Shown here: piece by piece, positions 1,925-58,623 of the stretch
How positions within the stretch are numbered: position 1 is the first letter of the stretch
Layout of the letters: each line of letters opens with the position of its first letter
Assembly (NCBI GenBank): GCA_937927575.1
Contig: CALBEE010000135.1
Coordinates: forward strand, 1 to 64,000
Length of the DNA: 64,000 nt
Direction of reading: 5' to 3'
DNA from: an uncultured Saprospiraceae bacterium
GTDB taxonomy: Bacteria; Bacteroidota; Bacteroidia; Chitinophagales; Saprospiraceae
The notes under the pieces: generated by a model
The model's database searches: none
Seen by the model: only the letters and a program-made list of their open reading frames with translations
What the model was told of the DNA's origin: nothing
Made by a program: the position numbers and the translations under genes

Positions 1925-1958
1925 AAAGAGGCTGCTATGACCATAGCAGCCTCTTTTT
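1925..1958 (+). terminator. Rho-independent terminator after the LytTR gene
   Basis: A perfect 11-bp stem, GAGGCTGCTAT with ATAGCAGCCTC, and a short loop are followed by five T. Confidence 0.9.
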
Positions 1959-2385
1959 ATTTGGCATTCTTTCATAACATTATGACCGTTAACACAATGA
2001 TATATACCATTAACTACATAATACGTACCTTTTAATATTTAGGTATTTATACGTATGGATAAGTAGATTTCTACCCATAGATTTGTTTCAAATCAAGATC
2101 AAACCCTTTTATAAAAACCATAAAAACCTCAATTTGAATGAATTATCTGCAATTCATGCTAGATAAGAAATAATGTATCAAAAAAATCAGACGCATTGCC
2201 TTTACTAAGTGCGTGTACATCTTGTTGCTCATAGCGACCCTATACTCTTGAGCTCCATCCTTAGATGTCCAAATTAATTTTTTGCATTTAGAGGTAACAT
2301 GTTTGATTCAGATGGATATTATATAATGACAACAATATTTTTTTACCCTTTTGTAATTTATTAACCAATTATTAAAAAATCAATC
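1959..2385. other. AT-rich intergenic region, no gene seen
   Basis: About 430 bases with no coding frame, no clear hairpin and no full TAnnTTTG promoter. It presumably carries the promoter for the two secreted-protein genes that follow. Confidence 0.4.
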
Positions 2386-2766
2386 ATGAAATCATTAATC
2401 AATTTAAAATCGAACCTTTTTATTTTTCTTTTTAGTCTTTTAGCTATTTCTATCTCAGCACAAACTGATGCTAGTGATAAAGGTATCGGAGAATGCGAAA
2501 CTGTAGAGTGGAACGCTAAACGAGATATGCCTGAAATCAATGATAAAGATCTTGATTGCGTTACCGTTACTTTAGTAGGATTTGAGAAAGATCAACTTCA
2601 AAAAATGCATGATATAGTTGGATCACTTTCAAGTAATCTTGTAATGATGAAAGTATCTGATAATTTGGAAGAACTTAAAATTAAGTTTAATCATAATCCA
2701 ATAAGCGCTGAAAGAAAGCAATCTGAATTTAAATCTTGTTTTGCAAAAATCAAGAAACAGATTTAA
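2386..2766 (+). CDS. Small secreted protein of unknown function
   Basis: The 126-aa product begins with a clear signal peptide (residues 1-26, ending ISISAQ). The mature ~100 residues contain three cysteines and alternating strand and helix patterns (VTVTLVGFEKDQLQKMHDIV), which could be a ferredoxin-like fold; this is only a guess. It has no T9SS sorting domain, so it probably stays periplasmic. It lies 36 bases upstream of a giant surface-protein gene in the same direction, so the two are probably cotranscribed and may work together. I do not recognise the family. Confidence 0.75.
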   Translation: MKSLINLKSNLFIFLFSLLAISISAQTDASDKGIGECETVEWNAKRDMPEINDKDLDCVTVTLVGFEKDQLQKMHDIVGSLSSNLVMMKVSDNLEELKIKFNHNPISAERKQSEFKSCFAKIKKQI

Positions 2767-2802
2767 TGCTATTCCCAATCATTACTATAAAATTAAAATA
2801 CA

Positions 2803-6708: not shown

Positions 6709-6760
6709 CAATTTTAAAAAATTGAAAATAAGGTGCGTTGATTCCTTGATTTTAATTTTT

Positions 6761-6793
6761 GGTGCTATGAGCGGATCATAGCACCTTTTTTTT
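6761..6793 (+). terminator. Rho-independent terminator after the HYR/PKD gene
   Basis: The stem GGTGCTATGA / TCATAGCACC has a short loop and is followed by eight T. Confidence 0.9.
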
Positions 6794-6988
6794 GTTTGGA
6801 CGTTTCTGGATTAATGTATCTAATGTTATCTCTTTCTAGCCAAGTTTTAATTGTCATAGGCTCAGGAAAACTTCTAATGCTTGGTAACAGATTTTTAGTT
6901 TTCTGCAAATAAATTGTTCAAACCATGCAATATTTATAACTAATTACTAGTTTTAACAACGAAATTATCGTTATAAAATTTTGTAGAG

Positions 6989-7381
6989 ATGAAAAGTAAG
7001 AATAGTAATAAGTCTAAATTGACCCATAGAGAAGAAGAGATTATGCAAATCATTTGGAAATTAGGGTCTGCGTTTCCAAAAGAAATTATGGAGTATCTTA
7101 CTGAGCCTATACCTCCATATAATACTATTCTTTCTATGATTAGGAAATTAGAAGCTAATGGATGGCTAGCATTTAAAAAATTTGGTAAGTCCCATCAATA
7201 TTATCCCTTAGTGGACAAAAAAGATTATTCGCAATCGCTATTCTCTAAACTGTACAATGAGTACTTAGGTGGATCTAAAGAAATGTTGATGTCGTATTTT
7301 ATGAAAGAAGAAAATGTGGACATAGCTGAACTAGAACAGTTAGTAAAAGAGCTTAAGAAAGCGCAGAAAAACAACCAATAG
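6989..7381 (+). CDS. BlaI/MecI-family transcriptional repressor
   Basis: This 130-aa winged-helix protein shows the BlaI/MecI/CopY signature: LTHREEEIMQIIW at the N-terminus, then PPYNTILSMIRKLEANGWL as recognition helix and wing. The C-terminal ~50 residues are the dimerisation part. Family members bind operators as dimers and are cleaved after a signal from a partner BlaR1-type M56 protease. Such a partner gene follows 31 bases downstream, so the two form an operon that probably autoregulates. No beta-lactamase gene lies nearby, so the signal is unlikely to be restricted to beta-lactams. Confidence 0.92.
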   Translation: MKSKNSNKSKLTHREEEIMQIIWKLGSAFPKEIMEYLTEPIPPYNTILSMIRKLEANGWLAFKKFGKSHQYYPLVDKKDYSQSLFSKLYNEYLGGSKEMLMSYFMKEENVDIAELEQLVKELKKAQKNNQ

Positions 7382-7412
7382 CAATACGTTTTTTATCAGT
7401 TAATTATTCGTC

Positions 7413-8759
7413 ATGTTAAATCAATCTTACATAATAGAAGCATCATATATTTTAGTTATTGCATACGTACTTTATCTTTTGATTTTTGCCAATGACAAAG
7501 CCTTTACAAGAAATCGAATCTATTTATTGACCTCATTGATATTGGCATTAATAATTCCTTTGCTGAGTTTTCCTGTTTTTGCTAGAGAAGTAATTACGTA
7601 TTCTACGCCTATTAGCGTTAGTGGTAATTTGTCACCTAATTCAGTAATTCCAGCTACAATGAATTGGGAGGAATTGCTAGCTATATTGTATTGGAGTGTT
7701 TTTGGTCTGTTGTCTTTACGTCTTGTGTATCACTTCTTTTTTATTAGAAAAGTACTGAATACTAGTAAAAGTATAATTAAGGATAATATAAAGTTCGTCA
7801 TTACTGACAAGCTTACAACGCCTGCAAGTATTTTCAATAATTTAATTGTCAATGATGTGAATATTCCTCAGGAAATAATAGACCACGAGAAAGTACACAT
7901 GGATCATGGACACACCTGGGATGTACTGTTGATAGAAATTATGAAGGTCATATTCTGGTTTAATCCATTCATCTACTTCTTGGCCAAATGCTTGAAAGAT
8001 AATCACGAATATATGGCGGACTACATAGCAGCGCAATCTCTTGAAAGTGAATTAGATTACTCAAATATTCTCATTCAATATGCAAAATCGAATAGGCACT
8101 CACCCACATTATTAAATACATTTAGTTCAATTACGAAAAAAAGAATAATCATGCTTAGTAAAAACAAGTCCAATAATATTTTCAAATCACTATTATTATT
8201 CCCAATATTCTTAGCCATTCTTACATTGTTTTCATTTGATACATATAATGTTACCGTAGACCAACATGGCAATATTTTGAGTGATAGTATTCCTGAATCA
8301 AGATTAGATACAATAATTACATTTGATGCAGTTACTGGTGCTGAGTCTATACAAATAGAAAGGGTGTATTCTAATGATATACGTACTTGGAAGGATACCA
8401 CTATTATTTTTAATGCTGAGACTTTTGAAGAGAAAGTACAAGTAGTTACTTCTGAAGCGCCAAGAACGGAAATTATCCAACAAACCTACACTACTAATGA
8501 GTATAATATGAAAACAGGAGATTTGGAAACCAAAACCTATAGGAGGTTCCCTCAAGAATTAGTCGAAGTAACTGATACCATAGTGACATTTAATTATGAT
8601 ACATACGAAGAGAATTTTCAAGTGGTAAAGTCTATGGCTCCACGAGAAGAATTAATATCAAAAAAAGTCACTCCTAGAAATATGATTAAGGAAGGACAAA
8701 ATTTCGATAATGTAAAGAAGTCAAAAGGTAAAGTAGTTACTAAGCTCAGGGGGAATTAA
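7413..8759 (+). CDS. BlaR1-like M56-family membrane metalloprotease
   Basis: The 448-aa protein has N-terminal membrane helices (about residues 8-25, 35-55 and 90-112). The zinc protease motif HEKVH is at 158-162, a further helix follows it, and another membrane helix is near 265-285. The partner is the BlaI-like repressor just upstream. Unlike BlaR1 there is no penicillin-binding sensor domain. Instead the outer part (about 295-448) holds three copies of a short unit of the form D-T-x-x-x-F-x-x-x-T-x-x-E, at about residues 296, 328 and 388, two of them continuing into FQVV/VQVV and AP-R-E/TE. The signal sensed by this region is unknown. A terminator follows at 8894. Confidence 0.88.
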   Translation: MLNQSYIIEASYILVIAYVLYLLIFANDKAFTRNRIYLLTSLILALIIPLLSFPVFAREVITYSTPISVSGNLSPNSVIPATMNWEELLAILYWSVFGLLSLRLVYHFFFIRKVLNTSKSIIKDNIKFVITDKLTTPASIFNNLIVNDVNIPQEIIDHEKVHMDHGHTWDVLLIEIMKVIFWFNPFIYFLAKCLKDNHEYMADYIAAQSLESELDYSNILIQYAKSNRHSPTLLNTFSSITKKRIIMLSKNKSNNIFKSLLLFPIFLAILTLFSFDTYNVTVDQHGNILSDSIPESRLDTIITFDAVTGAESIQIERVYSNDIRTWKDTTIIFNAETFEEKVQVVTSEAPRTEIIQQTYTTNEYNMKTGDLETKTYRRFPQELVEVTDTIVTFNYDTYEENFQVVKSMAPREELISKKVTPRNMIKEGQNFDNVKKSKGKVVTKLRGN

Positions 8760-8893
8760 GAATTTTTGACCGTTAATACGCCGATAGTTACCGTTCGTCC
8801 AAATCGAGACCTGAGTGGTACGATCCTAAGTTATATTTAGCTTGCTTTTAATCAATTTGTACTGATCAGCTAATGCCTACGCTGAGAAGGGAA

Positions 8894-8929
8894 GAGGCCA
8901 TCTTAATTTGTATAAGATGGCCTCCTTTT
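8894..8929 (+). terminator. Rho-independent terminator after the blaI/blaR-like pair
   Basis: A perfect 12-bp stem, GAGGCCATCTTA with TAAGATGGCCTC, and a short loop are followed by CTTTT. Confidence 0.85.
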
Positions 8930-8951
8930 ATTTTTACTTTTGAGGCTTTGT

Positions 8952-9881
8952 TTACTCACTTAAAGTATCGTACCAAAAACGATCTACAAAATCCATTAAA
9001 ACCTTATTCTCAGGATTCTGAGCTTTTAGTTGCTGCCCATAATAAATGGCATAGTTGATTAATCCTTGTTCCTCCAAAAGGCTCATTACATAGATGGCTT
9101 TGGTGGCATCACTTAGTATTATGTCAGAACTCGCAATTTCATTTTCGATGCTTTCAATTTGCTTTTCATATCCTCTTTTATCTCCGACCATTATTCTCGA
9201 AATAGGATATTCCATTTCTTGACCTGAAATAGTCACAGTCCAATAGTATTTTTTGTTCGCTAATAAAAATTGATCTGCTCCTTTTAATACGACTTCTTGC
9301 TCTTCTGTAGTCCAAGCGTATACACTTGCTCTGGTTTCTAGGTCGTATATAGTCACTACATACTGACAGGCTTCGCAAGAATGAGACCAAGAGAACTGAA
9401 TATCTCCGTCAGTAAAAGGTATAGTGCCGTCTAAAGGGAAGTCTAATTGCGGTGGAGATAATACACCGCGAGATATGGCGTGAATACTATTTTTATAGCT
9501 TGACTTTGATTCAGCTGAAGAGTGATTTATAAAGAAAGAATGGAAGTAGGAGCAAAATTTATCAAAGAGTGAATTAGACTCAGATTTTTCAAATTTTAGA
9601 CTTTTGATTTCATATTCTCCTTCTTTAGTGATTTCACATGTTTCATTGTCTTCGTTGATGAGTTTTAAGGTAGCATTACCTTTTAGTAATATTTTATCAG
9701 CTTTTGGTAAAGGTCCAAATACTACTTTTTTATACATCACTTTCTCATCATTGCTATTGTACGTAAAAGCGTCTCCATCATATTGCATCACTGATATTTG
9801 CTGACCTATCGAAAAGACGGTCATTGTACATATGATTAATACGCAACCGAGTATTTTACAAATTTTGGAATAAGGGTTCAT
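8952..9881 (-). CDS. Secreted protein with fibronectin-like domain, unknown function
   Basis: The 309-aa protein begins with a signal peptide (about 1-27, ending FSIGQ). Residues ~30-100 form a small beta-rich domain (GNATLKLINEDNETCEI). Residues ~145-230 resemble a fibronectin type III-like fold (FSWSHSCEACQYVVTIYD, then KKYYWTVTI), and the last ~75 residues are helical and TPR-like. It starts 15 bases after the CHASE2 remnant ends, in the same direction, so it was probably the second gene of a CHASE2 operon. It looks intact, but its upstream partner is truncated, so it may have lost its promoter. I do not recognise a named family. Confidence 0.7.
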   Translation of the reverse strand: MNPYSKICKILGCVLIICTMTVFSIGQQISVMQYDGDAFTYNSNDEKVMYKKVVFGPLPKADKILLKGNATLKLINEDNETCEITKEGEYEIKSLKFEKSESNSLFDKFCSYFHSFFINHSSAESKSSYKNSIHAISRGVLSPPQLDFPLDGTIPFTDGDIQFSWSHSCEACQYVVTIYDLETRASVYAWTTEEQEVVLKGADQFLLANKKYYWTVTISGQEMEYPISRIMVGDKRGYEKQIESIENEIASSDIILSDATKAIYVMSLLEEQGLINYAIYYGQQLKAQNPENKVLMDFVDRFWYDTLSE

Positions 9882-9896
9882 AATAATTTTATTAAG

Positions 9897-10427
9897 TTAA
9901 TGATGGTTATTGGATTTGGTATATTCTTTTTTGAGAACTTTAGTAGTATATAATTCAGCTACCTTATGCTTTAGTTTATGATCATAAAACTCATAGACCT
10001 CGAAGGATATAATTACCGCAGTAATCATGATTATAAATCCGAATTTGATATTAAAGTAAGTGATCATAATAATGCAAATACTAAATAGTAGTACGAATTG
10101 AATCAGTTGTACGACTCGTACTAATGGTAATACTGTAAAGAGTTTTTTGTCATCTAGCTTCTTGAAAATAAAGTAATTGATGAAAAAGATTAAAAAGCCT
10201 ATTAAATAGAGAATCCACTCTGGAATTTCATTGATAAAATCTTGACTCAATAGCATTGAGACGATATTAGCATGAACTACTACACCATACATATCAGGTA
10301 ATGACCTACCATGATAAATTTGATTAAGCGGAGTGAAATATCTGTCTTTCATAGAAAGGGCTTCTTCATCTTCTCCATTAAATCCGATGAGCACTACTTT
10401 ATCTTTTAGATATTTTTCACTGTATGG
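9897..10427 (-). pseudogene. CHASE2-domain membrane protein, 5'-truncated remnant
   Basis: The readable protein starts abruptly within a CHASE2 sensor domain (YLKDKVVLIGF, then DRYFTPLN, GRSLPDMYGVVVHANI). It continues through membrane helices (about three) to a normal stop. CHASE2 domains are extracytoplasmic sensors of about 300 residues preceded by a membrane anchor; here roughly the first two thirds are missing. A GTG at 10394 allows a 165-aa product, but it sits in the conserved core, so it is not a natural start. In frame, homologous-looking sequence runs up to about 10427, where it meets the opposite-strand gene that begins at 10424. Confidence 0.75.
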
Positions 10428-42878: not shown

Positions 42879-45800
42879 TTACGACATCCCACTATACACG
42901 CTCACTCCGCCATCTGGATAATTGGCATAAATATGTTGATAAACCACAGCAGTCCGTTCTCCCACATCATTATCATCGTATGAGTTTTGCGGAAGCCATA
43001 GCAAATTGTTATATATCGTAGACTTCACTTGAGCTTTCACTTGTTGACTTTCTCTCCAGAGCTTTACTTTTAGTTTTTCTTTTTTGAGGGTATTTAGAGT
43101 TTGTTTCGCTATTCGTTTAACTTCTTTGACCTCAGCCGCGGATAGCTTTTTTTCTGATACTAACAGATCGTAGATGGCGAGTACTTCTTGATTGCCAAGA
43201 TTCTCTTTGATGGCTCTGCGCTCTTCTACCGTTAAGTCTTTTACTAGATCTACTAATCCGTCAAACGCTCCTTGCGTCGATTCTTTGGTCTTACCATCAT
43301 TATACTCTTTGATGATCTCTTGATATCGCGCATAGAATTCCATACGCAATGGATTCTCCCTGAGCATCTGTTCTAATTTTTGTTCTACTGCCTGCTGAAG
43401 ATCATAGGTGAGTTTGTTTTTTCTTGGTGCCTTAGAGAACATCTCTTTGAGTTTAGTGAAATCTAATTTCGATAGATCTACAGCTCCATTGCCTTCTTTT
43501 ACTATATTAGTTTGCACTTCGATACGATCATCTACTACGGATTGCAATTGAGCGATGATCTCTGTAATATCTGCAGACTTTACATTTTCATTAAGTTGAT
43601 TATAGATCGCATTGATCGCATTATACTTACGTGTATATCGTTTGGCTTGCGGCTCTGGGAATAGTGCTTTGTACTTCTTAAATACTTGTCTGGCCATAAT
43701 ACCAAACTGAGTACGCGATGCTTCATTAAGGCAGATCGCATTGATTGCATCATTGAGCCTTGCAATCTTTTGCATCGGTTTGGCATCCATGAGATCTTTG
43801 AGATTAAATTTCAATTCCTCTAAGTACAACATCAACGCTTTGATAGATTCAAATAGCTCTGCTCCCATCGACTCCAACAGTTCTACTGGACGGTCACTTT
43901 TTCTACCGCCTTGCCCTTTTCCACCTTCACCGTATATACTGAATGCTTTTTCTAGTTGACGATATACATTTCCATAGTCTACTATCAGTCCATTTTCTTT
44001 TTCATCATCATGGATTCTATTCGCTCTAGCTATGGTCTGCATCAGCGTATGGCCTTTGATTGGTTTATCCAGATAGACTGTAGATACACATGGCGCATCG
44101 AATCCAGTAATCCACATCGCACATACGATCGCCAAGCGAAACGGATTATCTTCATCTTTAAATTCTTTTTCTAGATCTCGTTCTGCATGTTTTTTTCTAT
44201 GTGTCTCTATATCGAGCCCTAGTTTTCGGAATTTATCGACTTCATTTTGTTCGCTACTTACTACCACACATACTTCTGTCGCTTTTACTTTTTCGAGTTT
44301 TTTTTGTAGCAGTATTTCCTCATGTGGATCTTTTGTGTTTTTTATTTTATCTATTAATTCATCGACATACTGAGGCCAATACTTTTGTATCAGGTCGTAC
44401 ATCTTTACCGCCGCAGGTTTGTCTAGAGCAACGTACATGGCCTTACCTTGATAGCCTCTATCATTGAAGTGCCAGACGAGATCTTTAGCGATTGCATCTA
44501 ACCTAGGCATGGATGTAAGCACCACATAGTCCTTCTTAAAATTATATGCAAGCTTTTGCCTTTGGTCTTCATCCAGATCAGAATTTTCGATGATCGCAGC
44601 CATTTGATCATCTATATCTGGATTGTTGAGTTTGAGTTTTTCTCCCTTATTGATATATCGCAAGGGTAGGGTGGCATCATCTTCTATGGCTCTCTTAAAA
44701 TCGTAGACTGATACATAATCGCCAAATATATTTTTGGTCAGCTCCTCTTCTTCTTTGATAATAGGTGTGCCTGTAAATCCAAGATACGATGCATTTGGTA
44801 ATCCGTAGTACCTCATGTTTTGTGCGTACACTCCTGATTGTGTTCTGTGTGCTTCATCAGAGATTACGATTACGTTTTTACGATCGGTGATGAGTGGATA
44901 TTCTGATTCTATAGCAGGATCTACAGAAAACTTATGTATCAATGAAAAGACATATCTATGATTGTCAGATAGTAGCTCTCGCAGATGCTCTCTACCAGAT
45001 ATTCCTTTTTTCTTACCGGCAACTACCTGCTTACTATTGACTACTCCTACTCCAGAGAATGTATCGTAGATCTGATTTTCTAACTCAGTACGATCTACTA
45101 CGATCAAGAATGTGTAAGAGCCGCCCATCTTTCTATGAATCTTCTCACAGAGAAATACCATGGAGTAAGATTTTCCACTGCCCTGCGTATGCCAAAATAC
45201 ACCGAGCTTTCCTTCTAACTCATCTATATGTTGGATAGAATCTATTACTTTATTGACACCGATGTATTGATGGTTTTTTGCCATCAACTTATTTACGGCT
45301 CCACCAGTATCGTCATAGAGGAGAAAGTTTTCAAATATATCCATCAGCTTCACTGGATCGCAGGTGCCTCTGAGCATGGCATCGAGCTCAACCTCCGGCT
45401 CATCATCTTCTTCTATACGCTTCCATTCTAGGAAGTATTTGTATTGTGCATATGCAGTGCCGACTCTAGCTTCTCGACCATTGCTCAGTATCACGAATGC
45501 ATTATGATCAAACACATGTGGGATCGTATCCTTATAGTCTTTGAGATTGTCTATATAGGCATTGATTAGGCCTATATTATGGTTTTTGAGCTCAATGAAT
45601 ACAAGTGGGATACCATTGACAAAGCAAATTACATCTGGGCGGCGCAGATACATATCTCCCACGATCTCTAGCTGCCTTACTGCCAAAAAGGTATTGTTCT
45701 CAGGATTTCTGAAATCAAATAGCTTTACCTTCTGCTGTACCAAATCGCCTTTATCGTCCGTATAGCTTACAGGTACACCTTGCTTCAGTAATTGGTATTT

Positions 45801-46079
45801 ATCCTTGTTGATACGACCAGGATCTTGGCCTGCTATACGCGCACTGAGTGCATCTATAGCTTGCTGTACAGCTATGTCAGGGATGTCGTCATTGTATTTC
45901 TGTATTGCATGCTTGATGTCTCTATGTAGCAGTACTTGCGACTTATCCTCTCTACCCAGCTGCCCATTAGGGCCAAAGGTCTCACTGGGCCATGCCGTCA
46001 CTACTTTCCATCCTAGCTCCTCTAGCACATCTTGCGTTGCTCTTTCTATTAGTCCATCTTCGGAGTACTCGTAACTCAT
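42879..46079 (-). CDS. hsdR: Type I restriction endonuclease, R (motor/nuclease) subunit
   Basis: The 1066-aa protein has an N-terminal nuclease domain (LVFIELKNHN, typical of the D-E-x-K type), then a superfamily 2 translocase with Walker A TQGSGKSYSMVF (about residues 297-308), the Walker B/DEAH box VISDEAHRTQSG (about 405-416) and later helicase motifs (LGFTGTP, MWITGFDAPCV, QTIARANR). It cuts unmodified DNA after ATP-driven translocation as part of an HsdR2M2S complex. It is separated from hsdS and hsdM by ~5 kb carrying three unrelated genes. All motifs needed for activity appear intact. Confidence 0.96.
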   Translation of the reverse strand: MSYEYSEDGLIERATQDVLEELGWKVVTAWPSETFGPNGQLGREDKSQVLLHRDIKHAIQKYNDDIPDIAVQQAIDALSARIAGQDPGRINKDKYQLLKQGVPVSYTDDKGDLVQQKVKLFDFRNPENNTFLAVRQLEIVGDMYLRRPDVICFVNGIPLVFIELKNHNIGLINAYIDNLKDYKDTIPHVFDHNAFVILSNGREARVGTAYAQYKYFLEWKRIEEDDEPEVELDAMLRGTCDPVKLMDIFENFLLYDDTGGAVNKLMAKNHQYIGVNKVIDSIQHIDELEGKLGVFWHTQGSGKSYSMVFLCEKIHRKMGGSYTFLIVVDRTELENQIYDTFSGVGVVNSKQVVAGKKKGISGREHLRELLSDNHRYVFSLIHKFSVDPAIESEYPLITDRKNVIVISDEAHRTQSGVYAQNMRYYGLPNASYLGFTGTPIIKEEEELTKNIFGDYVSVYDFKRAIEDDATLPLRYINKGEKLKLNNPDIDDQMAAIIENSDLDEDQRQKLAYNFKKDYVVLTSMPRLDAIAKDLVWHFNDRGYQGKAMYVALDKPAAVKMYDLIQKYWPQYVDELIDKIKNTKDPHEEILLQKKLEKVKATEVCVVVSSEQNEVDKFRKLGLDIETHRKKHAERDLEKEFKDEDNPFRLAIVCAMWITGFDAPCVSTVYLDKPIKGHTLMQTIARANRIHDDEKENGLIVDYGNVYRQLEKAFSIYGEGGKGQGGRKSDRPVELLESMGAELFESIKALMLYLEELKFNLKDLMDAKPMQKIARLNDAINAICLNEASRTQFGIMARQVFKKYKALFPEPQAKRYTRKYNAINAIYNQLNENVKSADITEIIAQLQSVVDDRIEVQTNIVKEGNGAVDLSKLDFTKLKEMFSKAPRKNKLTYDLQQAVEQKLEQMLRENPLRMEFYARYQEIIKEYNDGKTKESTQGAFDGLVDLVKDLTVEERRAIKENLGNQEVLAIYDLLVSEKKLSAAEVKEVKRIAKQTLNTLKKEKLKVKLWRESQQVKAQVKSTIYNNLLWLPQNSYDDNDVGERTAVVYQHIYANYPDGGVSVYSGMS

Positions 46080-46324: not shown

Positions 46325-47824
46325 ATGCCCTCATCAGCTCGTAACCCCATATATACATTACACCTAACCGATTGGCACTTTCAGGATGCAGATTATTTAA
46401 CTAATGATGCAAGAGAAACTGAGAATTCTAAGGAAGAATCAAAGAAAGATGCGTCAAGGCTAAAAAAAAGGATTCAAAAATTAGAGGAGATACCAAATGC
46501 GCAAGCAAGATATGTTACTAGCATAAAGGAAATAGGTACGAAATTTTTGATCGAAAAAGGAAGAAAGTTTTTCGACTTGGTGATCATCACTGGTGATATG
46601 ATGGACAAGAATGGATCTGGTAATGGTCATGATCTAGTGGCAAAAGAAATTAATAATCTTAAAGCAATTGACGAAAGTGGAGTAGCTCTTATCGGTGAAG
46701 AATCAAAGATATACATATGTGCAGGTAATCATGATAGCGATTTTTCAATGACAATGAATATACTATCCGAAATGGAGTGTACGCGAGCATTGAAAATGGT
46801 TACTGTTCCTAATTCAGTAATAATTGATAAGCATATTGCAAAATTTCAAGAGGGTTTTAGTGCTTTTAAAGCATTTGGTGAGGCAATTGGTGCTACCAAT
46901 AAAGACAATCCATTCAATGGATGTGATACCATTGCATTTGGCGATACAGAAATAATGTGCAGTTGGTTTAATTCTGGTTGGATGTCCATGTCGGATAAAG
47001 ATTGGAAAAACCTTCCAGAGCTAGATAAGGAGAAACCTCGTACGCTCTATAGTGATATGAATAACCTTTCTGTAGGGTATCATATCAATCAAGAGATCTT
47101 TGAAAAGCTAGGTGATTTTAATAGGAGGAAAGATGAGGAAAAAGAGGCAAAGAGTCCAAAGAAGTTCTTTTCTTATGCGCTTTGTCATCATAATCCAAGA
47201 CATTTCAATTGGTTTGATAAATATCCGACAGATAAATCTCTTCGAATGAATACAGAAGTCATTAACAGTTGGAAACATGAACTTAAGTGTGACGATGACG
47301 GTAATTTTCGCAGAGATGAGTGTCTTTACCAACACTTCAAGCAGTATGACCTAACCGTCAATGGTCATACGCATGGTAGCTTTTTTGATGATAGCTTTAT
47401 GACCTCATCAGGAGGTCGTACTATGGATTCTGTCGCGAGTACTAACTACCTTTCGATATTAGAGCTAGATACAATAAGAGAACTGACCACACGTTATGAA
47501 TACCCTGTAGAAAGTGGTAAAGAAGCGCCTAATCCTGTGGTATTTGTCCATAATACTAAGCATTTTGAAAAGAAAATTAAGTCCAGCTACGAATCCCATG
47601 ATTTATACGAAGATCTTAGTTCCAATGGCCTTTTGAAGACTGAATTTGAGCTGCCTGAGCCATTAAAAAGTGCTGATTATAGCGAACATATCGTTGAAAT
47701 GTCAGGTTTGGATGAAAAGAATGGCTTAATTTCTGCAAATAGTGTTAATAGTATTAAAAGCAACCCATTAATAATCAACGATTTAGAACATGAATTGTTA
47801 GCTATGGCAAAGATCAAATGCTAG
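46325..47824 (+). CDS. Calcineurin-like metallophosphoesterase embedded in the type I R-M locus
   Basis: The 499-aa protein has all five metal-binding motifs of the family: DWH (D16-H18), GDMMD (90-94), GNHD (134-137), HH (288-289) and GHTH (347-350). It is much longer than a minimal ~250-residue phosphoesterase, with long insertions between motifs (a charged helical stretch at about 30-65) and a ~120-residue C-terminal extension. It has no signal peptide, so it is cytosolic. The substrate could be nucleic acid or nucleotide; this cannot be decided. It is followed after 78 bases by a 112-aa gene and converges on a 917-aa unknown, all between hsdR and hsdS. Its placement suggests a phage-defence role (inference). 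Confidence 0.88.
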   Translation: MPSSARNPIYTLHLTDWHFQDADYLTNDARETENSKEESKKDASRLKKRIQKLEEIPNAQARYVTSIKEIGTKFLIEKGRKFFDLVIITGDMMDKNGSGNGHDLVAKEINNLKAIDESGVALIGEESKIYICAGNHDSDFSMTMNILSEMECTRALKMVTVPNSVIIDKHIAKFQEGFSAFKAFGEAIGATNKDNPFNGCDTIAFGDTEIMCSWFNSGWMSMSDKDWKNLPELDKEKPRTLYSDMNNLSVGYHINQEIFEKLGDFNRRKDEEKEAKSPKKFFSYALCHHNPRHFNWFDKYPTDKSLRMNTEVINSWKHELKCDDDGNFRRDECLYQHFKQYDLTVNGHTHGSFFDDSFMTSSGGRTMDSVASTNYLSILELDTIRELTTRYEYPVESGKEAPNPVVFVHNTKHFEKKIKSSYESHDLYEDLSSNGLLKTEFELPEPLKSADYSEHIVEMSGLDEKNGLISANSVNSIKSNPLIINDLEHELLAMAKIKC

Positions 47825-47902
47825 AATTCCGTAATATGAAAAATACCCATCATTTACAGGTCTTAACTATTATCTTTACCAGCTCGTTTAGAATAAAGCA
47901 AT

Positions 47903-48241
47903 ATGACACAAGATAGCAACATAAAACTCTTTAAATTATACCTTACTACTTTCGGTTTTAGTGGTGATGTATTGTCTTCTGAATTCTTGTCTTTGTCTAA
48001 GAGTCCAGAAGCAGCTGAGTTTGAAATCAATAGAAAATCGTTGAATATGTTTAGGGTTTGGTTGCATGCGCCATCTAGTAGTGATATTGTGCAAAACATA
48101 CTCAATAACTATTCGTCAGAAATAGAAGCCATTAGAGAAGATAGAAAAGCGAGCTGGGATGATTATAGAGATTCACTCAAGCCTAAGCTTCTTACACTTG
48201 AAAATGTATCAAACTTCGTCGGAATGTTTGACGAGGGTTAG
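47903..48241 (+). CDS. Small protein of unknown function downstream of the phosphoesterase
   Basis: The 112-aa protein is soluble, mostly helical and acidic/polar, with no signal peptide. Features such as FKLYLTTFGFSGDVLSSEF and RVWLHAPSSSDIVQNILNNY do not match a family I know. It is probably cotranscribed with the phosphoesterase 78 bases upstream. Its 3' end overlaps the 3' end of the opposite-strand 917-aa gene by 33 bases. It could be a partner or regulator of the phosphoesterase; this is only positional. Confidence 0.65.
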   Translation: MTQDSNIKLFKLYLTTFGFSGDVLSSEFLSLSKSPEAAEFEINRKSLNMFRVWLHAPSSSDIVQNILNNYSSEIEAIREDRKASWDDYRDSLKPKLLTLENVSNFVGMFDEG

Positions 48242-50962
48242 TATGTAATTTAGTTTGAGATTATAAGCATTATCACGCATTGCTTTTATTATTTCTAACC
48301 GTTGTGAAAGTACTTTCATTCTTAATTTTGCATCTCTTATAAAGAGTCCTCCTTGTGGATCAAACAGGGCTGACGTTAGATTCTTATTACTAGTCATACC
48401 TCTTCCTGTCATTGGATGTCTAAGATATGTAGCAATAGCATTAGTGCTCACATCTGTAGTAATCATATCCTTGAATTGTCTTAACTTGGATTTATTCTCT
48501 TTCAGAAAGTTAGATACGAACTTATATTCACTATCATTATTAGACGCGTTGAATCCGCGTAGAATTTTCTTAGCATCTCCAATTAACTCCGTTAGCATAT
48601 ACTCCATTATATTTTCATCCCAATCTAATAAATAGTTATATAGTTCCACACACTCGTTATGAATGCATGATCCTTCATGGTCAAATAAGTGATAGATGAT
48701 TTCTGGATTTTGTACTAATCGTTTAAAATCTTCTATTTTTATCGGAATGTCAGAATCAGTAAGATTGCAAATAGCGAAAAAATATGAAAAATAATGTTGT
48801 CTTAGTGAAGAGACACTTAATGAGCCATCTGTATTGTACAGGTTAGAAGTTTGGCTGTATATATTCCATAACCAAAATGTGAAGGTGTCAATATCATAAG
48901 AGGGCCTTTGCAATGTTGCTGTCCCAGTTTTTTCTGTAATATTTTCCCATTGTAGCTTGATAAAGAAGACGTAATATAAAATGTAGTTAAGCTTTGTTTT
49001 GATCCGATCTACTGGAAAGTATTTGTAAAGGAGTGTCTTGTATTTAAGATCAGGCTCATTGTGTATTTGATAAGATAATTCTGATTGTACTTTCTTAATC
49101 TTATCTAACATACCTTTCAATGAATACTCTCCATCACTCTGCGTCAAAAATGCCTTGTCAAGTAAATAGTTGATAGCTTCTTTTGGTAATGCAAAAAGAA
49201 AAAATTCTGGCTGGAATAGTTGGAAGTAGTTGAGATGTAAGACGTTTATCGTCGACTTGATCCCTGCAGTATAGTCTCCATAAGATACTATCGGAAGTTG
49301 TATAAGAGAATGCTCTTGCTTGTTTAAAGTAAGTCCCTGTGACACTCCCTTGAAGACTCCATCATAGGCTTGAAGTATCTGATGAACACCACCATTAAAC
49401 TGGCCTTTGGTGTCCAAATTGTACCCATTTCTCTTACTATCCAAGAAGCGATTAGAGTAAGCCACTTCAAAAATGGAAGTTAATTTCAGGAGTAGATCGG
49501 ACACATATCTTACCTTTCTAGTATCGGTAGGATTTGTATTTTGTGTGGTATCTTCTATGCCAGCTAGATTAGTGACAGTGGTATATATATTATCTAGTAA
49601 TGCTCTTAGATCTACATAGTAGCAATATAGATTAATGTCGCATATGATGTCATTAAAATTAGTGAATAAAGTAAGCACCGGATTAGAAACATCTTTGGAT
49701 ATATGCAACGATTTTAATGATCGTTCGAGCTGTTTTATCTTTTTACCACCAAACTTAAGATCTTTGAAAAGTTGACTATGAAAGCTTGTGTTAGACTCAT
49801 TCTTTATAGGGGCCTCTAGATTTTCATTTTCTTTAGGGCCTTTGGGTTTAATGTCTAGCTCCATACTCACATTAGAATGTATCTTTCTGATATGACTTCT
49901 AAATTCTTGATGAATTTCTGGGTGCTGATGCATTACTTTCCAAAATTGTATGTAGTCGGATACTGTTTTGTTTTTAAATACAATTCCTAAATCGCGCTTA
50001 CCATTAACGAATCGAAATTTTCGGTCTATACAGTTATCAAATTGCTTCTTGTGCAATAGGTCTATCACATTATCGATGTGACCAGTTTTTACATGTATCT
50101 TGGTGCTGATCCTAATTTTATCATCTACTTCAGAGGAGATATAATTTTTTAACAATTCTTCATCGTCTAGTATCTTAGGATTGATGCCATATATGGTTTC
50201 CGTATCAGTGAATACGTGATGCTTTAGATTGTTTTGATCTAGATCTTGGTTTTTGATACTTATTTTATGAAATAGCGTATCGTTTAGTTCTAAATTGTAG
50301 TTTTTAAAAGTTTTTGCTCTTACGTCTTTTATGCTGTTTTGAATTTTTAGCAGACTATCAGAGAAGTATATACATGATATCTCGTGCCAAGAAAAGGATT
50401 CAGTCACTATGCATTGTACTCCCGCAATGTCTTTATTTTTTAGATTTGCTTTGATTTCTTGTAGCATATCTACACCCCCTCCTATGAGAAGTGAAGAATT
50501 TATTTTTAGTTTGACTACAGCGGTATAGTTATAATCCAAAAAATCTATATCCTGTAGCTCTTTATTGTAGTCCAGATGAAAACCATTGATCACTTGATAT
50601 TGAAAATTGGAATTTTCTAAAGACTCACCTTTCAAATATCTATTATAAGGTCTAAATGAAAAATTTCCGAAATGAAAATCGTCTACATAGCTGTACGTGA
50701 TCAGTGAAAACGAACCAACAGCATAATAGTTAATCGGCTGATATAGAAATGAAGCTAACTTAGTACTCGATTCATTGAATTTATCTTCGAGGTTACTTTT
50801 AAACTGAGTGAATGTTTCATCAATGACATCCATTAATGGGTTAGTGTTTTTGATGTCACTATTGGAGTAGGTAGGCACTGTAGTGAGTCCTATGAATAAT
50901 CCTGCATCTTCTCTACGGGTATACGATTTTGGCTGTGACTCTTCAGTTGTACATTCACTCAT
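48209..50962 (-). CDS. 917-aa protein of unknown function between hsdS and hsdR
   Basis: A cytosolic protein (no signal peptide or clear membrane helix) that I cannot assign to any family. The N-terminal half is mixed alpha/beta (LFIGLTTVPTYSNS, AVVKLKINSSLLIGGGVDML). The middle has a charged linker (about 350-395, KPKGPKENENLE) and the C-terminal half is helical with many aromatic residues. I see no Walker, nuclease, protease or zinc motif. It lies downstream of hsdM-hsdS in the same direction, after 225 bases with paired palindromes that look like operators, and converges on the phosphoesterase/112-aa pair. The open frame is long and base use matches its neighbours, so it is a real gene. 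Its place in the locus suggests a defence role (inference). Confidence 0.75.
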   Translation of the reverse strand: MSECTTEESQPKSYTRREDAGLFIGLTTVPTYSNSDIKNTNPLMDVIDETFTQFKSNLEDKFNESSTKLASFLYQPINYYAVGSFSLITYSYVDDFHFGNFSFRPYNRYLKGESLENSNFQYQVINGFHLDYNKELQDIDFLDYNYTAVVKLKINSSLLIGGGVDMLQEIKANLKNKDIAGVQCIVTESFSWHEISCIYFSDSLLKIQNSIKDVRAKTFKNYNLELNDTLFHKISIKNQDLDQNNLKHHVFTDTETIYGINPKILDDEELLKNYISSEVDDKIRISTKIHVKTGHIDNVIDLLHKKQFDNCIDRKFRFVNGKRDLGIVFKNKTVSDYIQFWKVMHQHPEIHQEFRSHIRKIHSNVSMELDIKPKGPKENENLEAPIKNESNTSFHSQLFKDLKFGGKKIKQLERSLKSLHISKDVSNPVLTLFTNFNDIICDINLYCYYVDLRALLDNIYTTVTNLAGIEDTTQNTNPTDTRKVRYVSDLLLKLTSIFEVAYSNRFLDSKRNGYNLDTKGQFNGGVHQILQAYDGVFKGVSQGLTLNKQEHSLIQLPIVSYGDYTAGIKSTINVLHLNYFQLFQPEFFLFALPKEAINYLLDKAFLTQSDGEYSLKGMLDKIKKVQSELSYQIHNEPDLKYKTLLYKYFPVDRIKTKLNYILYYVFFIKLQWENITEKTGTATLQRPSYDIDTFTFWLWNIYSQTSNLYNTDGSLSVSSLRQHYFSYFFAICNLTDSDIPIKIEDFKRLVQNPEIIYHLFDHEGSCIHNECVELYNYLLDWDENIMEYMLTELIGDAKKILRGFNASNNDSEYKFVSNFLKENKSKLRQFKDMITTDVSTNAIATYLRHPMTGRGMTSNKNLTSALFDPQGGLFIRDAKLRMKVLSQRLEIIKAMRDNAYNLKLNYILTLVKHSDEV

Positions 50963-51187: not shown

Positions 51188-52504
51188 TCACCCACCATAC
51201 CCCACATCACCCTCAGCCGCCATACTTCCCATCAGATCACCATCCATCTTATAACCCACAGCAGGGATCTTCACCTCATCTACATCGATCAGCCCACTCA
51301 TCAGTCTCGGAAGTAAAATATCTCTAGCTTCTTTGAGGTATTGGTTTTGGAGCGTAAGTTTATGAATAGTATCAAGTGATTTGTCGAAATGATTACCAAA
51401 TAAATTTAATAATTCTAAGGTGGGAATTGTTATATCGTAATTTTCAAAATCAACAACCTTTACCGCTGGATAAGCAGCCCCTGTTGCATTGTTTACTAAA
51501 TAGCTGATAAAGTCAACTGATGAAAGTGCATTGTGAATGAAACTGCTATGATAGAATTTTGGTGTGATAACGCAGAAGCCAGTTGAGGCTATTAGATTTG
51601 ATTCTGGATTCCAAATCATGGCATAAGATTTTCTATTTGGCCTAACACATGACCAGATTAAATCTCCATGTGAAAGTTTTCTTTTCGCTCTTCCTGGCGC
51701 TTTTGCAAATGGAATTGGATTATTTTTTTCTATGGAATTTGTACTAACTGAACTAATGTCTACATATATTATATCTCCAGAATAACCTTTATTAATTTTC
51801 TTCATGTTAAACTCACACACCTCTCCCAACTTCTTCCGCTCCCATCCCACAGGTAATCCACTCTTCTCATCCCACTCTGCAGTTTCATGCCCAGGAAATC
51901 GCATCCGTACAAACCACTCCTCATACGTAATCTGTGCCATCTCTTCTAGTAATTTTATCCGCTTGAGATTATTCTCTATCAAATCATCATAAGCAGAAAG
52001 AATGGCGGCTATTTTCTTTTGGGTTGGGAGGGGTGGAAGGTTGATTACTAAATTTTCAAGAGTATTTTTCGTAAGAGCATTTCTTGTGGCTCCTGAACCC
52101 GTTGCAATACCTAGAAGGGTGGCTTGCATAAAAGGAGAGTTCAACGAATACATTAGATATCTAGAATCTAATTTTGTACTTTCACTTCTGATAATTGTTA
52201 CATGTTGATTAACTCTTGCTGGAAGTAATTCACTTGGTGGTATGCAACATCTTGCAACAGAATCGCCTGTAATATTAATTAGAACGTCACCGTGCACTAC
52301 TTTTGCGTTTGACATTTTTTTTGCAATGACATCATCAATGAATACTAGACCATTATTGGTAAATGAAATGTTGTAAATATTCTGACTTCTAAAAAGCGGT
52401 ATTCCTTTTTCAATATATACTTTAGATCCTCCCCTTGGCGTTACTCCACTTCCAATTTTTAAGCAGTATTTGCCCAACTTCACCTTCTTCCATCCCTTCT
52501 TCAT
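51188..52504 (-). CDS. hsdS: Type I restriction-modification specificity subunit S
   Basis: The 438-aa protein has two target-recognition domains (about 1-150 and 210-380), each followed by a helical spacer. The first TRD runs into LPTQKKIAAILSAYDDLIENNLKRIKLLEEMAQ and the second into NQYLKEARDILLPRLMSG, the usual coiled-coil connectors. It sets the bipartite DNA recognition site for both methylation and cutting. Its start overlaps the hsdM stop by 4 bases (ATGA), giving translational coupling. The full two-TRD layout suggests it is functional. Confidence 0.95.
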   Translation of the reverse strand: MKKGWKKVKLGKYCLKIGSGVTPRGGSKVYIEKGIPLFRSQNIYNISFTNNGLVFIDDVIAKKMSNAKVVHGDVLINITGDSVARCCIPPSELLPARVNQHVTIIRSESTKLDSRYLMYSLNSPFMQATLLGIATGSGATRNALTKNTLENLVINLPPLPTQKKIAAILSAYDDLIENNLKRIKLLEEMAQITYEEWFVRMRFPGHETAEWDEKSGLPVGWERKKLGEVCEFNMKKINKGYSGDIIYVDISSVSTNSIEKNNPIPFAKAPGRAKRKLSHGDLIWSCVRPNRKSYAMIWNPESNLIASTGFCVITPKFYHSSFIHNALSSVDFISYLVNNATGAAYPAVKVVDFENYDITIPTLELLNLFGNHFDKSLDTIHKLTLQNQYLKEARDILLPRLMSGLIDVDEVKIPAVGYKMDGDLMGSMAAEGDVGYGG

Positions 52505-54087
52505 AACTCCACTCCCATTATCTGTACCATTAATCCATTCGCTTCTTTATTCAATTCTCTGAGCTCAGTTTTTATTTCTGTGATTCTAGATTTATAATCA
52601 AAGTCTTCATCGATGTCAATCTTTACACCTACATATCTTCCTGGCGTCAGGCTGTAATCTTGCTCTCTGATCTCGTCTAGTGATGCGATCTTGCATAGGC
52701 CTTCTATATCGAATCCGTTGTCTCCGACATCGTCTTTAGTATATGTTCCTAGTTGGTCCAGATTTTTCTTCGTAAGCTTCTTACCGGATCGATAAGTTTC
52801 TATCAGCCCAGTGAGTCCTGAGAGTTGCTCTGGGCTAAAGTCATTGAGTGTAGTATTTACTTTACGATATACATTACGCGCATCGATCATGAGTACCTTA
52901 TCGAGATTCTTTTTGTGTTTCCCTTTATTGAAAAACCAAACATGACAAGGCAATGATCTCGTATAGAAAAAATTATTACTGATGGCTACGATACAGTCTA
53001 CATGACTGGTCTCTATCAGTTGCTGACGGATCAGCTTTTCGCTATGACCAGCATCGGTAGCCGAGCTCGCCATAACGAATCCTGCACGGCCACTCTCATT
53101 AAGATATGAGTAGAAGTACTGCATCCACATATAGTTACCATTAGGGATCGTACCCTTACCAGTGAGCGGTACACCGAAGGGTAGTCTCTTATCTTCTTTG
53201 ATGTAGTCATTATGATCTATACCATCTACATTAAATGGAGGATTGGCCATCAAAAAATCTACTTTACCGATTAGATTATGCGGATCAGAGTAGAAGCTAT
53301 TATTATTAGCGATCTTACCTTCGATACCATGTATGGCGAGGTTCATTTTAGCCAGTCGCGTCGTGTTACTTTTGTACTCAGTACCATAGCAAGTGATGGC
53401 TTCGTTCACCGCTTTATTAGCTGTGTTTTTGATGAAGTGTGCAGACTGTACGAACATACCACCTGACCCACATGCAGGATCATGTACGATACCATGATCT
53501 GGCTGTATAAAGTTGACGATCAGGTCTACTAGCGATGGAGGCGTAAAGAATTCTCCACCTTCCTGTGCACCTGCACCTTGCATAGAGAATTTCATTAGGA
53601 AAAACTCATAGATACGACCAAATACATCGCCCTTGGCCTGTCGTACCGCATCACTATTAAATATGCGGATGAGGTCACGCAGCAGCGCTTCTTCGAATAC
53701 CTGATAGTTTTTAGGTAGGATGCCTTCTAGATCTTTGTACTCGGCTTCTATCTTTTTCATCGCATCATTGATCGCTTGAGCGATATCTTGATCTTCTGGC
53801 ATAGCCGCTAGGTAATCATACTTCGCCACTTTGGGCAGTTTGATGGCTCCAGCACCGAGGTAATCTTCTTTGGTGGCAGTCCGCTTCTTACCTGTACGTG
53901 GATTGATAGGTAGTATGGCTTCTATCTCGATCTTAGCATCTTCATACCTATTCTGGGCAAATCTCAGTAGCACCAATCCCAGCAGTGGATCTTTATACTC
54001 GGCAGCAGTGAGCTTAGAGTTAGATCTGAGTTTGTCGGCCGCTTCCCAAAGCTCTTTTTCGAGGTCTCTGATGTCTGATTGGTTCAT
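52501..54087 (-). CDS. hsdM: Type I restriction-modification N6-adenine methyltransferase subunit
   Basis: The 528-aa protein (from the ATG at 54087) begins MNQSDIRDLEKELWEAADKL, the normal HsdM N-terminus. The upstream ATG at 54099 adds four residues. The SAM-binding motif DPACGSGGMF lies near residue 210 and the catalytic NPPF motif near 280 (FLMANPPFNV). It methylates adenine in the site chosen by HsdS and protects host DNA. It is the first gene of the hsdM-hsdS unit and diverges from the LpxR-like operon. Confidence 0.95.
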   Translation of the reverse strand: MNQSDIRDLEKELWEAADKLRSNSKLTAAEYKDPLLGLVLLRFAQNRYEDAKIEIEAILPINPRTGKKRTATKEDYLGAGAIKLPKVAKYDYLAAMPEDQDIAQAINDAMKKIEAEYKDLEGILPKNYQVFEEALLRDLIRIFNSDAVRQAKGDVFGRIYEFFLMKFSMQGAGAQEGGEFFTPPSLVDLIVNFIQPDHGIVHDPACGSGGMFVQSAHFIKNTANKAVNEAITCYGTEYKSNTTRLAKMNLAIHGIEGKIANNNSFYSDPHNLIGKVDFLMANPPFNVDGIDHNDYIKEDKRLPFGVPLTGKGTIPNGNYMWMQYFYSYLNESGRAGFVMASSATDAGHSEKLIRQQLIETSHVDCIVAISNNFFYTRSLPCHVWFFNKGKHKKNLDKVLMIDARNVYRKVNTTLNDFSPEQLSGLTGLIETYRSGKKLTKKNLDQLGTYTKDDVGDNGFDIEGLCKIASLDEIREQDYSLTPGRYVGVKIDIDEDFDYKSRITEIKTELRELNKEANGLMVQIMGVEL

Positions 54088-54208
54088 GCTATATCTCATT
54101 AATAATCACATCGAAGATAATGAAATGAAGGGAAAGCATAATGTCATTAGTGGAAGTTGAATGCTGAGCTGCCGATTGTATGTAATATACTACCGTTGGT
54201 AAAATATG

Positions 54209-55482: not shown

Positions 55483-56862
55483 ATGGCAATACATACTATA
55501 CATTATAATGATTCTCTTTCTGTAAAAGATATCTCTTCTGCAATCTTAAGTGAGCGTCAAATTAAAGGAGAAAACACTGTACAAATTAGAGTAGTCTTTA
55601 ATACATCTGTAAATAATGAGATTCGAAAATTTAATGATGACAATTTTTCTGTTCATATGCGAAAAGTCGATGGGCAAGAAGTTTATCTTATATATTTTAA
55701 TAAAGATGCTGCTAATAGTTTAGAGTCTATTATTAGTAGATATTCGAAGCAAAATTTTGTTCGAATAGTTGAACCTAATTTAGCATATAAAGTAGAAACG
55801 GGAAGAGATCAAATCAATAATGTAGATCCACCTTCGGTGAATAGTATATTAGTAGATACATCACGTAGTGTATCTTATTTTAATGATAAGGATTATAAGC
55901 TTCAGTGGTATTTCAAAAATAGGGGGCAGTTTGGTGGTGCTCCTGATGAAGATGTACGATTAGAAGAAGCCATAAAATATATAGATAGTAAAAATTTAAT
56001 ATCTAACACTCAAGTCAAATTAGCCATACTAGATGATGGATTAGATCCTAAGCACGAAGACTTAAATAGGCGAAATGTCATAGAGGGTTTTGATGTGATA
56101 GATGGCGATTATAAGCCTATACCTAGTAGAAAGATGACGCATGGCACTAATGTGGCAGGTATTATATACGCTACTGTAAATAATGGCTTAGGAGTAGTAG
56201 GGATCAATCCTCGACTCAAAGTAATCATAGTACGAATGATAAGTAAAAAGGCTGTTACTTCTACACCAAGTTGGGCAGCGAAATCGATACGAATAGCTGT
56301 AGATAACGGTGCAAATATTATCAATATGAGTTGGGGTTTGCCTAATAGGTCAGCCGAGATATTGGAAGCTATAAAGTATGCCGAAGACAATAATGTACTA
56401 TTAGTGGCAGCAGCAGGAAATTTTTATGATAATAGAAATAAAGGATTGCTTTTTCCTGGTTCAGAGCGTAATGTGCTTACGGTAGGTGCTTGTGATCATA
56501 AAGGAAGACGTATTACATTGGAAAACTGTGAAGCGAAGAAAAAATTTGGAAGTAGGGAGGGGGATAATTTAGATCTTTTGGCGCCAGGATTTAATATTTA
56601 TACTACGAAATTAGATTCTAGAATCAGTAGAATGAGTTATGTTAATTTTCATGGGACATCAGCGGCAGCACCTATAGTCAGTGCAGTGGCTAGCTTGATG
56701 CTTGCTGTAAATCCTAATATTGCGGCATTACAGATTAAACAAATTATTTGCAATACATGCGATAGTATTTCTAGATTAAATAGTGGTCAAGGAAAATCAA
56801 AATTGGGTAATGGGAGGTTAAATGCTTTAGAAGCCATCAAAGCAGTAGAGGCTTTATTGTAA
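55483..56862 (+). CDS. Subtilisin-like S8 serine protease without signal peptide
   Basis: The 459-aa protein has a complete catalytic triad: D184 (AILDDGLD), H220 (HGTNVAGI) and S393 (HGTSAAAP), with oxyanion-hole asparagine in AAAGNF. The N-terminal ~105 residues look like an I9-type propeptide (VYLIYFNKDAANSLESII). There is no signal peptide or membrane helix, so the enzyme should remain in the cytosol, unlike most Bacteroidota subtilisins. It is the middle gene of a tight operon (2 bases after the LpxR-like gene, 27 bases before the hydrolase gene) beside the restriction locus. A signal-activated cytosolic protease is one possible reading. Confidence 0.9.
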   Translation: MAIHTIHYNDSLSVKDISSAILSERQIKGENTVQIRVVFNTSVNNEIRKFNDDNFSVHMRKVDGQEVYLIYFNKDAANSLESIISRYSKQNFVRIVEPNLAYKVETGRDQINNVDPPSVNSILVDTSRSVSYFNDKDYKLQWYFKNRGQFGGAPDEDVRLEEAIKYIDSKNLISNTQVKLAILDDGLDPKHEDLNRRNVIEGFDVIDGDYKPIPSRKMTHGTNVAGIIYATVNNGLGVVGINPRLKVIIVRMISKKAVTSTPSWAAKSIRIAVDNGANIINMSWGLPNRSAEILEAIKYAEDNNVLLVAAAGNFYDNRNKGLLFPGSERNVLTVGACDHKGRRITLENCEAKKKFGSREGDNLDLLAPGFNIYTTKLDSRISRMSYVNFHGTSAAAPIVSAVASLMLAVNPNIAALQIKQIICNTCDSISRLNSGQGKSKLGNGRLNALEAIKAVEALL

Positions 56863-56889
56863 AAAGTTGAACATAGAAACGAATATAGA

Positions 56890-58623
56890 ATGAAGGAGGA
56901 TAAATCATCTAAAAAGAATAGAGTTGCTGCAATCGTAATCCATGGTATCGGTGAGCAAAAACCAATGGAAACTATGTCTGATTTTGTAAAGTCTATTTTG
57001 GCTTACGAAGAGTATAAAGGCTATATTCTACCTGAGCAAAATTACTATTCAGCTCCAGAAGAGATAGAGGGTAGTTTTGAAACGCAGAGATGGATAGTGA
57101 TGCCCACCAAGTACAGGGGTAAGCGAAATCCCAATCTGAGTTCTGATCATTCAGGAAATTATATTGCATCGGATGAAAAGGATCAAGTACGCCCTATGAT
57201 GGATTTTTATGAACTATACTGGGCGCCATTGATGAACGATAACAAATTCTCACATGTAATACCGTGGCTAATTAATCTTATTAGATCAAAAAATAAACCT
57301 TCAAGTATTAAGACCTTGCTGAAAGGTGTTTACTGGTTAGTATTAATTCTTTTTGCAGCTGCTGTGTTATCATCTATTGGTATCCATTATATAGTGACTA
57401 GGCTTCCAGGGCTTCAATTATTAGATAGATTCTTTTCAGATGCAATTGTAACTATAAGTATTTTATTGATTGGTAATTTACTCATCAAACTGATTCGTTG
57501 GTTATTAATTCCAGGTGTTTTAGCAATCTTTAGTCTGGCAATTTATGGAATAGTAGTACTTATTAATGCTTATTTTAATATCGAGGAGAGTATTTTTAAA
57601 TATGTCTATTCTGGCTTGCTCTTCTCTTTAATTATAAATAGTGTATTCTATAAATTTTCTGGCTCCTTATTGAAAAATTGGCTGGCGGATGCGGCTAGAT
57701 ATTTCAGTCCTACTCCAGATAATATAGCTCAAAGAAATGCAATACGTAATAAGGGTGTGGAGTTATTGGAAACACTAACCAAAAGAAATAAGTATGATAG
57801 AATAATAGTAGTTGGGCATAGTCTTGGTTCTGCAGTAGGTTATGATATACTTCGTCTTTATTGGGCTAAGCATTGTAATTATTATCAAGTGAGAGATAAT
57901 GTAACTAGAATACTTGGAGAAATGGATGATATTAATAAATTCGATTCTTCTAAGGTATGTGATTATCAGTTAAATCAAAGTAAAGGATTCTATGCGCTGA
58001 AAGAAAATGATATCGAGAAACTTCAAGTGAATTCACCATTACTGCCTTGGTTAGTTTCAGATTTTATCACTTTAGGAAGCCCTTTGTCAAAATTCACTTT
58101 GTTATTAGCTGATGGTGATATAAAAAAAATGTGGGCGACTAAAAATGAGAGGACTACTGTAATTAATCCTCCTCAAATAGATAGTAAGTCCAACAGTTAT
58201 TATTATAAGCACCCAACAGGACCACGTTTACATCATGGAGCTTTATTCGCATTTACCAGATGGACTAATATTTATCATGAGAATGATCATATAGGTGGTA
58301 AAATAGATAGTCAATTAGGAAGTGGTAATTTGAATATTAAAATTGCTACGCAAAAGATAAATTCAAATTTTGATAAGAAACTATCTTTTCTAAATAAGAT
58401 ATACAAATGTATTACAGCTAATAGTATAGCTATGCATACGCAGTATTGGTCGTCAAATATTATGAGAGATGATATGAATGGAATGGATATGGCAAATCCA
58501 ATATTAGAGGATTCTTTTAAGGCAGATTTGGCGTTTGGTTCTATTGACGAAATATATCGAGCAATGCATTTTAATCTACCTGAAGAGTTAGATGACATTG
58601 ATGATTGTCAAAATGGCAAATAA
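56890..58623 (+). CDS. Membrane alpha/beta-hydrolase with HGIGEQ motif
   Basis: The 577-aa protein has an N-terminal hydrolase segment (AAIVIHGIGEQKP, residues 13-25), then about three or four membrane helices (about 138-260), then the rest of the hydrolase core with nucleophile elbow GHSLGS (S311). Later acidic and histidine residues (FITLGSPLSKF, GPRLHHGALFAFTRW) may complete the site. The catalytic domain thus appears split by the membrane block. It is probably a lipase or esterase at the inner membrane. It is the last gene of the LpxR-like/subtilisin operon; two lipid-directed enzymes with a protease could form an envelope-damaging set (inference). Confidence 0.8.
   Translation: MKEDKSSKKNRVAAIVIHGIGEQKPMETMSDFVKSILAYEEYKGYILPEQNYYSAPEEIEGSFETQRWIVMPTKYRGKRNPNLSSDHSGNYIASDEKDQVRPMMDFYELYWAPLMNDNKFSHVIPWLINLIRSKNKPSSIKTLLKGVYWLVLILFAAAVLSSIGIHYIVTRLPGLQLLDRFFSDAIVTISILLIGNLLIKLIRWLLIPGVLAIFSLAIYGIVVLINAYFNIEESIFKYVYSGLLFSLIINSVFYKFSGSLLKNWLADAARYFSPTPDNIAQRNAIRNKGVELLETLTKRNKYDRIIVVGHSLGSAVGYDILRLYWAKHCNYYQVRDNVTRILGEMDDINKFDSSKVCDYQLNQSKGFYALKENDIEKLQVNSPLLPWLVSDFITLGSPLSKFTLLLADGDIKKMWATKNERTTVINPPQIDSKSNSYYYKHPTGPRLHHGALFAFTRWTNIYHENDHIGGKIDSQLGSGNLNIKIATQKINSNFDKKLSFLNKIYKCITANSIAMHTQYWSSNIMRDDMNGMDMANPILEDSFKADLAFGSIDEIYRAMHFNLPEELDDIDDCQNGK

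Follow-up and report, generated by a model that had tools for sequence, protein, structure and literature searches.

A three-gene cassette between hsdS and hsdR, with a core protein family and exchangeable putative effectors in Bacteroidota

The stretch of DNA analysed here, 64,000 nt long and referred to as the window, carries a type I restriction locus in which 5.1 kb separate hsdS from hsdR. The gap is filled by three genes: a 499-aa phosphoesterase (MPE), an ORF of 112 aa and an ORF of 917 aa that we call X (Table 1; loci compared with the window bear L-numbers). Does this block serve the type I enzyme, or is it a unit of its own? The answer that we consider fairly probable is that the cassette is a self-contained, horizontally moving conflict system, most likely anti-phage or anti-plasmid, which has settled in the hsdS-hsdR slot and in which X is the core and the effector is exchangeable.

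Three genes in a type I restriction locus

An earlier note on this DNA had described hsdM-hsdS and hsdR as intact and ~5 kb apart, the phosphoesterase as calcineurin-like with five motifs, and the ORFs of 112 and 917 aa as being of no recognisable type. This description holds: the hsd ORFs are in place with their Pfam domains, MPE has all of the motifs DxH, GD, GNHD, HH and GHTH as well as a Pfam Metallophos match, and neither of the other two ORFs has a match in Pfam (above cut-off), PADLOC or NCBIfam. The 112-aa ORF starts 78 bp downstream of MPE on the same strand, and X is convergent with it, the two overlapping by 33 bp. A scan for promoters and terminators gave a signal no higher than in shuffles. 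Elsewhere in the window, positions 55483-58623 encode a subtilase (PADLOC subtilase 3e-25, IetS 2.7e-6) and, downstream in the same orientation, a 577-aa protein which, judged by eye, resembles a membrane-bound alpha/beta-hydrolase; these two may be a further conflict operon adjoining the hsd locus.

Table 1. Cassette genes and flanking hsd genes in the window
Feature	Position	Strand	Remarks
hsdR, flank outside cassette	42879..46079	-	1066 aa; Pfam HSDR_N 1.4e-39, SWI2_SNF2 2.2e-67
MPE, calcineurin-like metallophosphoesterase, putative effector	46325..47824	+	499 aa; Pfam Metallophos 6.9e-8, above cut-off
112-aa protein, putative adaptor or regulator	47903..48241	+	C-terminal tail GMFDE; L002 homologue in same position
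X, core protein, putative sensor/regulator	48209..50962	-	917 aa; 17-member family alignment A6
hsdS, flank	51188..52504	-	438 aa; Pfam Methylase_S 4.5e-20
hsdM, flank	52501..54099	-	532 aa; Pfam N6_Mtase 2.5e-78, HsdM_N

By its Pfam match (PF00149) and its metal-binding motifs, MPE is a calcineurin-like metallophosphoesterase. Its sequence has no match in the PDB at E <= 1, and its subfamily was found nowhere else in the 199 genomes of the window's family. For X, profile searches recovered a family of 17 proteins, one of them truncated, with 20-43% identity to the window X. In Pfam, PADLOC and NCBIfam no member reaches a significant match, and the family profile gave only chance-level matches, none significant, against PDB sequences; X thus appears, from sequence searches, to be a core family matched to nothing described in the libraries searched. 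Invariant or near-invariant positions in alignment A6 include K292xGH295, W192xE194, R505 and D868xxGG872 (window numbering); X shows no recognised motif for enzymatic activity or ligand binding, and segments compared by hhalign as candidate internal repeats showed no mutual homology. AlphaFold models of the N and C halves, built from two-sequence alignments, were unusable (pLDDT 39 each), and a Foldseek search with the N-half model of pLDDT 39 gave no match at E <= 1e-3, the top entries, all weak, being 2pgc, coproheme decarboxylase, and NIPSNAP-like and Lrp-like alpha+beta proteins. The predicted order of strands and helices at residues 146-221 and 283-367 recalls ferredoxin-like modules, which the N-terminal half of X may possibly contain.

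Recurrence of the cassette and exchange of partners

Scanning genome contigs with X revealed the same convergent order of X, small ORF and MPE in Psychroserpens luteolus (L002), at identities to the window of 43% for X, 35% for MPE and 31% for the small ORF (blastp 2.7e-14 for the last). Because the block recurs in this order, its linkage in the window is more than chance. The L002 cassette is flanked by infB and respiratory-chain genes and has no hsd genes beside it, and comparison of the two loci indicates that the cassette is a unit of its own, separate from the type I enzyme.

MPE adjoins X, directly or with one small gene between, in seven loci (window, L002, L026, L044, L045, L046 and L047), its motifs being conserved in L002 and nearly all of them in the five further X-linked MPEs. 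Given 4-15 Metallophos matches per genome in the genomes checked, and about 16 independent X loci, the probability of finding MPE beside X in 7 of them by chance is about 4e-9, an estimate that assumes 15 Metallophos per 3500 genes and a range of +-2 genes around X. Moreover, distances among the MPEs track those among the X proteins (r 0.89), a correlation reached by 1 of 5040 label permutations. The scenario by which the earlier note would have abandoned its reading, with relatives of X scattered and never accompanied by a phosphoesterase, is therefore not what these loci look like.

In five other loci (L030, L005, L023, L024 and L025), MPE is replaced beside X by a TIR or TIR-like protein; in other words, one core family is accompanied by several families of putative effectors. 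TIR proteins are typical effectors and commonly attack NAD+. The convergent partner of X in L030 is a TIR_2 protein (5.1e-13), with a 65-aa ORF in between, and the partner in the other four loci is a 312-aa protein, again with a small ORF in between. The profile of the 312-aa proteins matches the L030 TIR at 1e-12, and the two members scanned have no Pfam match. A conserved stretch of about 150 aa extends these proteins at their C terminus. An aldo/keto reductase gene, the same one in all four loci and in both genera concerned, always adjoins their cassette, a sign that stable inheritance is possible. Among the remaining arrangements, an X with a C-terminal extension adjoins a 202-aa hydrophobic protein that has no Pfam match (L049), the partner of X in L031 is a 309-aa protein without assigned function, and in L027 and L028 X has a small ORF only, with no MPE or TIR partner.

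Most X loci also have a small ORF, and between clades these ORFs are dissimilar. Those of the window, L002, L027 and L028 share a C-terminal tail G-[ML]-F-[DY], found in just 5 of 1056 other short ORFs, with G[MLI]F[DY] as a slightly wider form of the motif; since the motif was picked after viewing the sequences, the shared tail is suggestive only. In the four loci with the 312-aa protein, the C terminus of the small ORFs reads KKxxKWLV or KKxLKWLV.

The spread of X over Bacteroidota genomes is patchy. Profile searches, with the window's own genome included in every count, gave the following numbers of genomes with X: 13 of the 199 searched in the window's family, 6 of 249 sampled from the order, 2 of 395 sampled from the class and, in a sample of 395 from the phylum, the own genome alone. 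The plasmids, phages and viral contigs searched contained no relatives of X or MPE. One candidate relative (G000:C73), a weak match to profile A1, was gone with profile A4 and was discarded as spurious. In the X tree, in which the deep branches are long and uncertainly joined, the window X pairs with the X of Flavobacteriaceae (100/100), apart from every X of its own family, to which it is only about 20-24% identical; this grouping points to horizontal transfer. The starred branches of the same tree require at least two changes of MPE label.

Most X loci are surrounded by ordinary genes. Among the about 16 independent loci, hsd genes adjoin X only in the window, and defence or mobile neighbours occur at three others: a Piwi gene (L047), a NACHT-LRR gene (L028) and a relaxase (L049). 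In L047 (region 5547-10331), the gene of a Piwi-domain protein (8.4e-17) precedes X by 30 bp in the same orientation, and the two could possibly form a joint defence island. In L028 (region 1856-7513), a 1635-aa NACHT-LRR protein that is animal-NLR-like adjoins X and its 58-aa partner. In L044, an ORF adjoining the cassette (6426-6959) resembles by eye the C-terminal part of ComM (Mg-chelatase-like), and this cassette is possibly inserted in comM.

We propose that X, whose N-terminal half is predicted to be alpha/beta and whose C-terminal half helical, would sense invasion and would hold or release the effector; as the conserved core, X most likely senses or regulates. Released MPE would then hydrolyse nucleotides, a nucleotide signal or nucleic acid, the TIR protein would act as effector in other genomes by attacking NAD+, and the small protein may serve to couple the effector or to keep it in check. 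The earlier note had likewise cast the phosphoesterase as effector and X as sensor or partner; these roles are still putative, and the exchange of effectors and the covariation of X with MPE speak in their favour.

Competing explanations

The position of the cassette between intact hsdS and hsdR invites the reading that its three genes assist the type I enzyme as an accessory that acts on what the enzyme produces, for instance cleaved phage DNA; modules that complement restriction can indeed reside in type I loci (PMC11411939). We surveyed this slot through the HsdR relatives found in 14 of 150 family genomes, which gave ten loci. McrBC lies between hsdS and hsdR in L066 and, with further small genes, in L069; McrC directly precedes hsdR in L065; the slot of L068 holds an HTH gene and two small genes; and it is empty in L067, L070 and L073. 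The gap thus accepts different defence modules, as it does with DarTG2, found between hsdS and hsdR (PMC12255303), and TgvAB, embedded in a type I locus (PMC11411939). Such variable contents support guilt by embedding and speak against the cassette being a dedicated partner of the type I enzyme. With unrelated McrBC or nothing in the relatives' slot, and hsd genes missing beside L002 and the other X loci, we judge the accessory role very unlikely. Of the two options in the earlier note, it is the defence system in its own right that gains from the hsd-free cassette of L002, the TIR swap and the other modules in the slot. As a separate observation, the trio of small genes in L068 and L069, one with an HTH, resembles a toxin-antitoxin set.

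The window cassette itself might be a toxin-antitoxin-like unit, with a toxic MPE, the small protein or X as antitoxin, and a main role in stabilising the locus rather than in sensing phage. It is compact and mobile, in the window and L002 alike a gene of the 112-aa type follows MPE directly and in the same orientation, and toxin-antitoxin systems of the DarTG2 type occupy this very slot (PMC12255303). However, known small antitoxins do not resemble a core of ~900 aa that persists alongside different effectors, and the small ORFs show poor conservation from one clade to another, which makes this explanation quite improbable. A non-defence signalling role, with X as, for example, a nucleotide-messenger receptor kept for physiology alongside a phosphodiesterase partner, would suit the ordinary genes adjoining most X loci and the stable aldo/keto reductase neighbourhood, but sits poorly with the patchy presence of X, the exchange for TIR, the transfer between orders and the defence slot; we regard it as unlikely. 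Roles could also be reversed, X being the toxic effector and MPE removing a nucleotide signal that would otherwise activate it. Enzymes of the calcineurin type are capable of cleaving cyclic nucleotides (see the discussion in PMC7159879), but the proteins that replace MPE are TIR proteins, themselves typical effectors, and such a reversal seems highly improbable.

Significance and relation to known systems

Recurring with exchangeable effectors, the cassette looks like an unreported antivirus system. A bolder proposal, which we hold tentatively and with slightly less than even confidence, is that X represents a new family of invader sensors of ~900 aa, perhaps with ferredoxin-like modules, which in Bacteroidota command effectors that can be exchanged (phosphoesterase, TIR and perhaps membrane effectors) and are unlike described defence cores. 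If true, the prokaryotic immune repertoire would gain a core family for which the libraries searched offer no match, with effectors exchanged as in other modular systems. The window, L002, L047 and L030 offer a defined gene set for phage tests, and the cassette bears on what metallophosphatase effectors attack.

This last point connects the cassette with DS-8 and DS-9 from DefensePredictor, in which the catalytic residues of a metallophosphatase are required for defence and its substrate is unknown (PMC13092281). The window cassette resembles them in having a metallophosphatase, which there belongs to a two-gene (DS-9) or fused (DS-8) architecture. In DS-9, however, the partner is a HAD phosphatase, whereas the partners in the window are X and the 112-aa protein, which have no Pfam match above cut-off; in DS-8 the metallophosphatase is paired with NACHT, and in the family search X resembles neither system. 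The nearest defence model to MPE, the DS-9 model DS9_1 (NF053862 equivalog), scores 20.9 bits against a cut-off of 420. The GTPase-centred GAP1-N1/GAAD conflict systems likewise combine a core, exchangeable calcineurin or TIR effectors and a small helical adaptor (PMC7159879), but the window cassette lacks a GTPase gene, no X has a GTPase match, and individual-sequence scans of the 17 X proteins with the Pfam GAP1 models gave none up to E 1. Finally, although TgvAB (GmrSD-like) and DarTG2 (an ADP-ribosyltransferase toxin-antitoxin) consist of proteins unrelated to those of the window cassette, both share with it the placement of an independent defence module between hsd genes (PMC11411939, PMC12255303).
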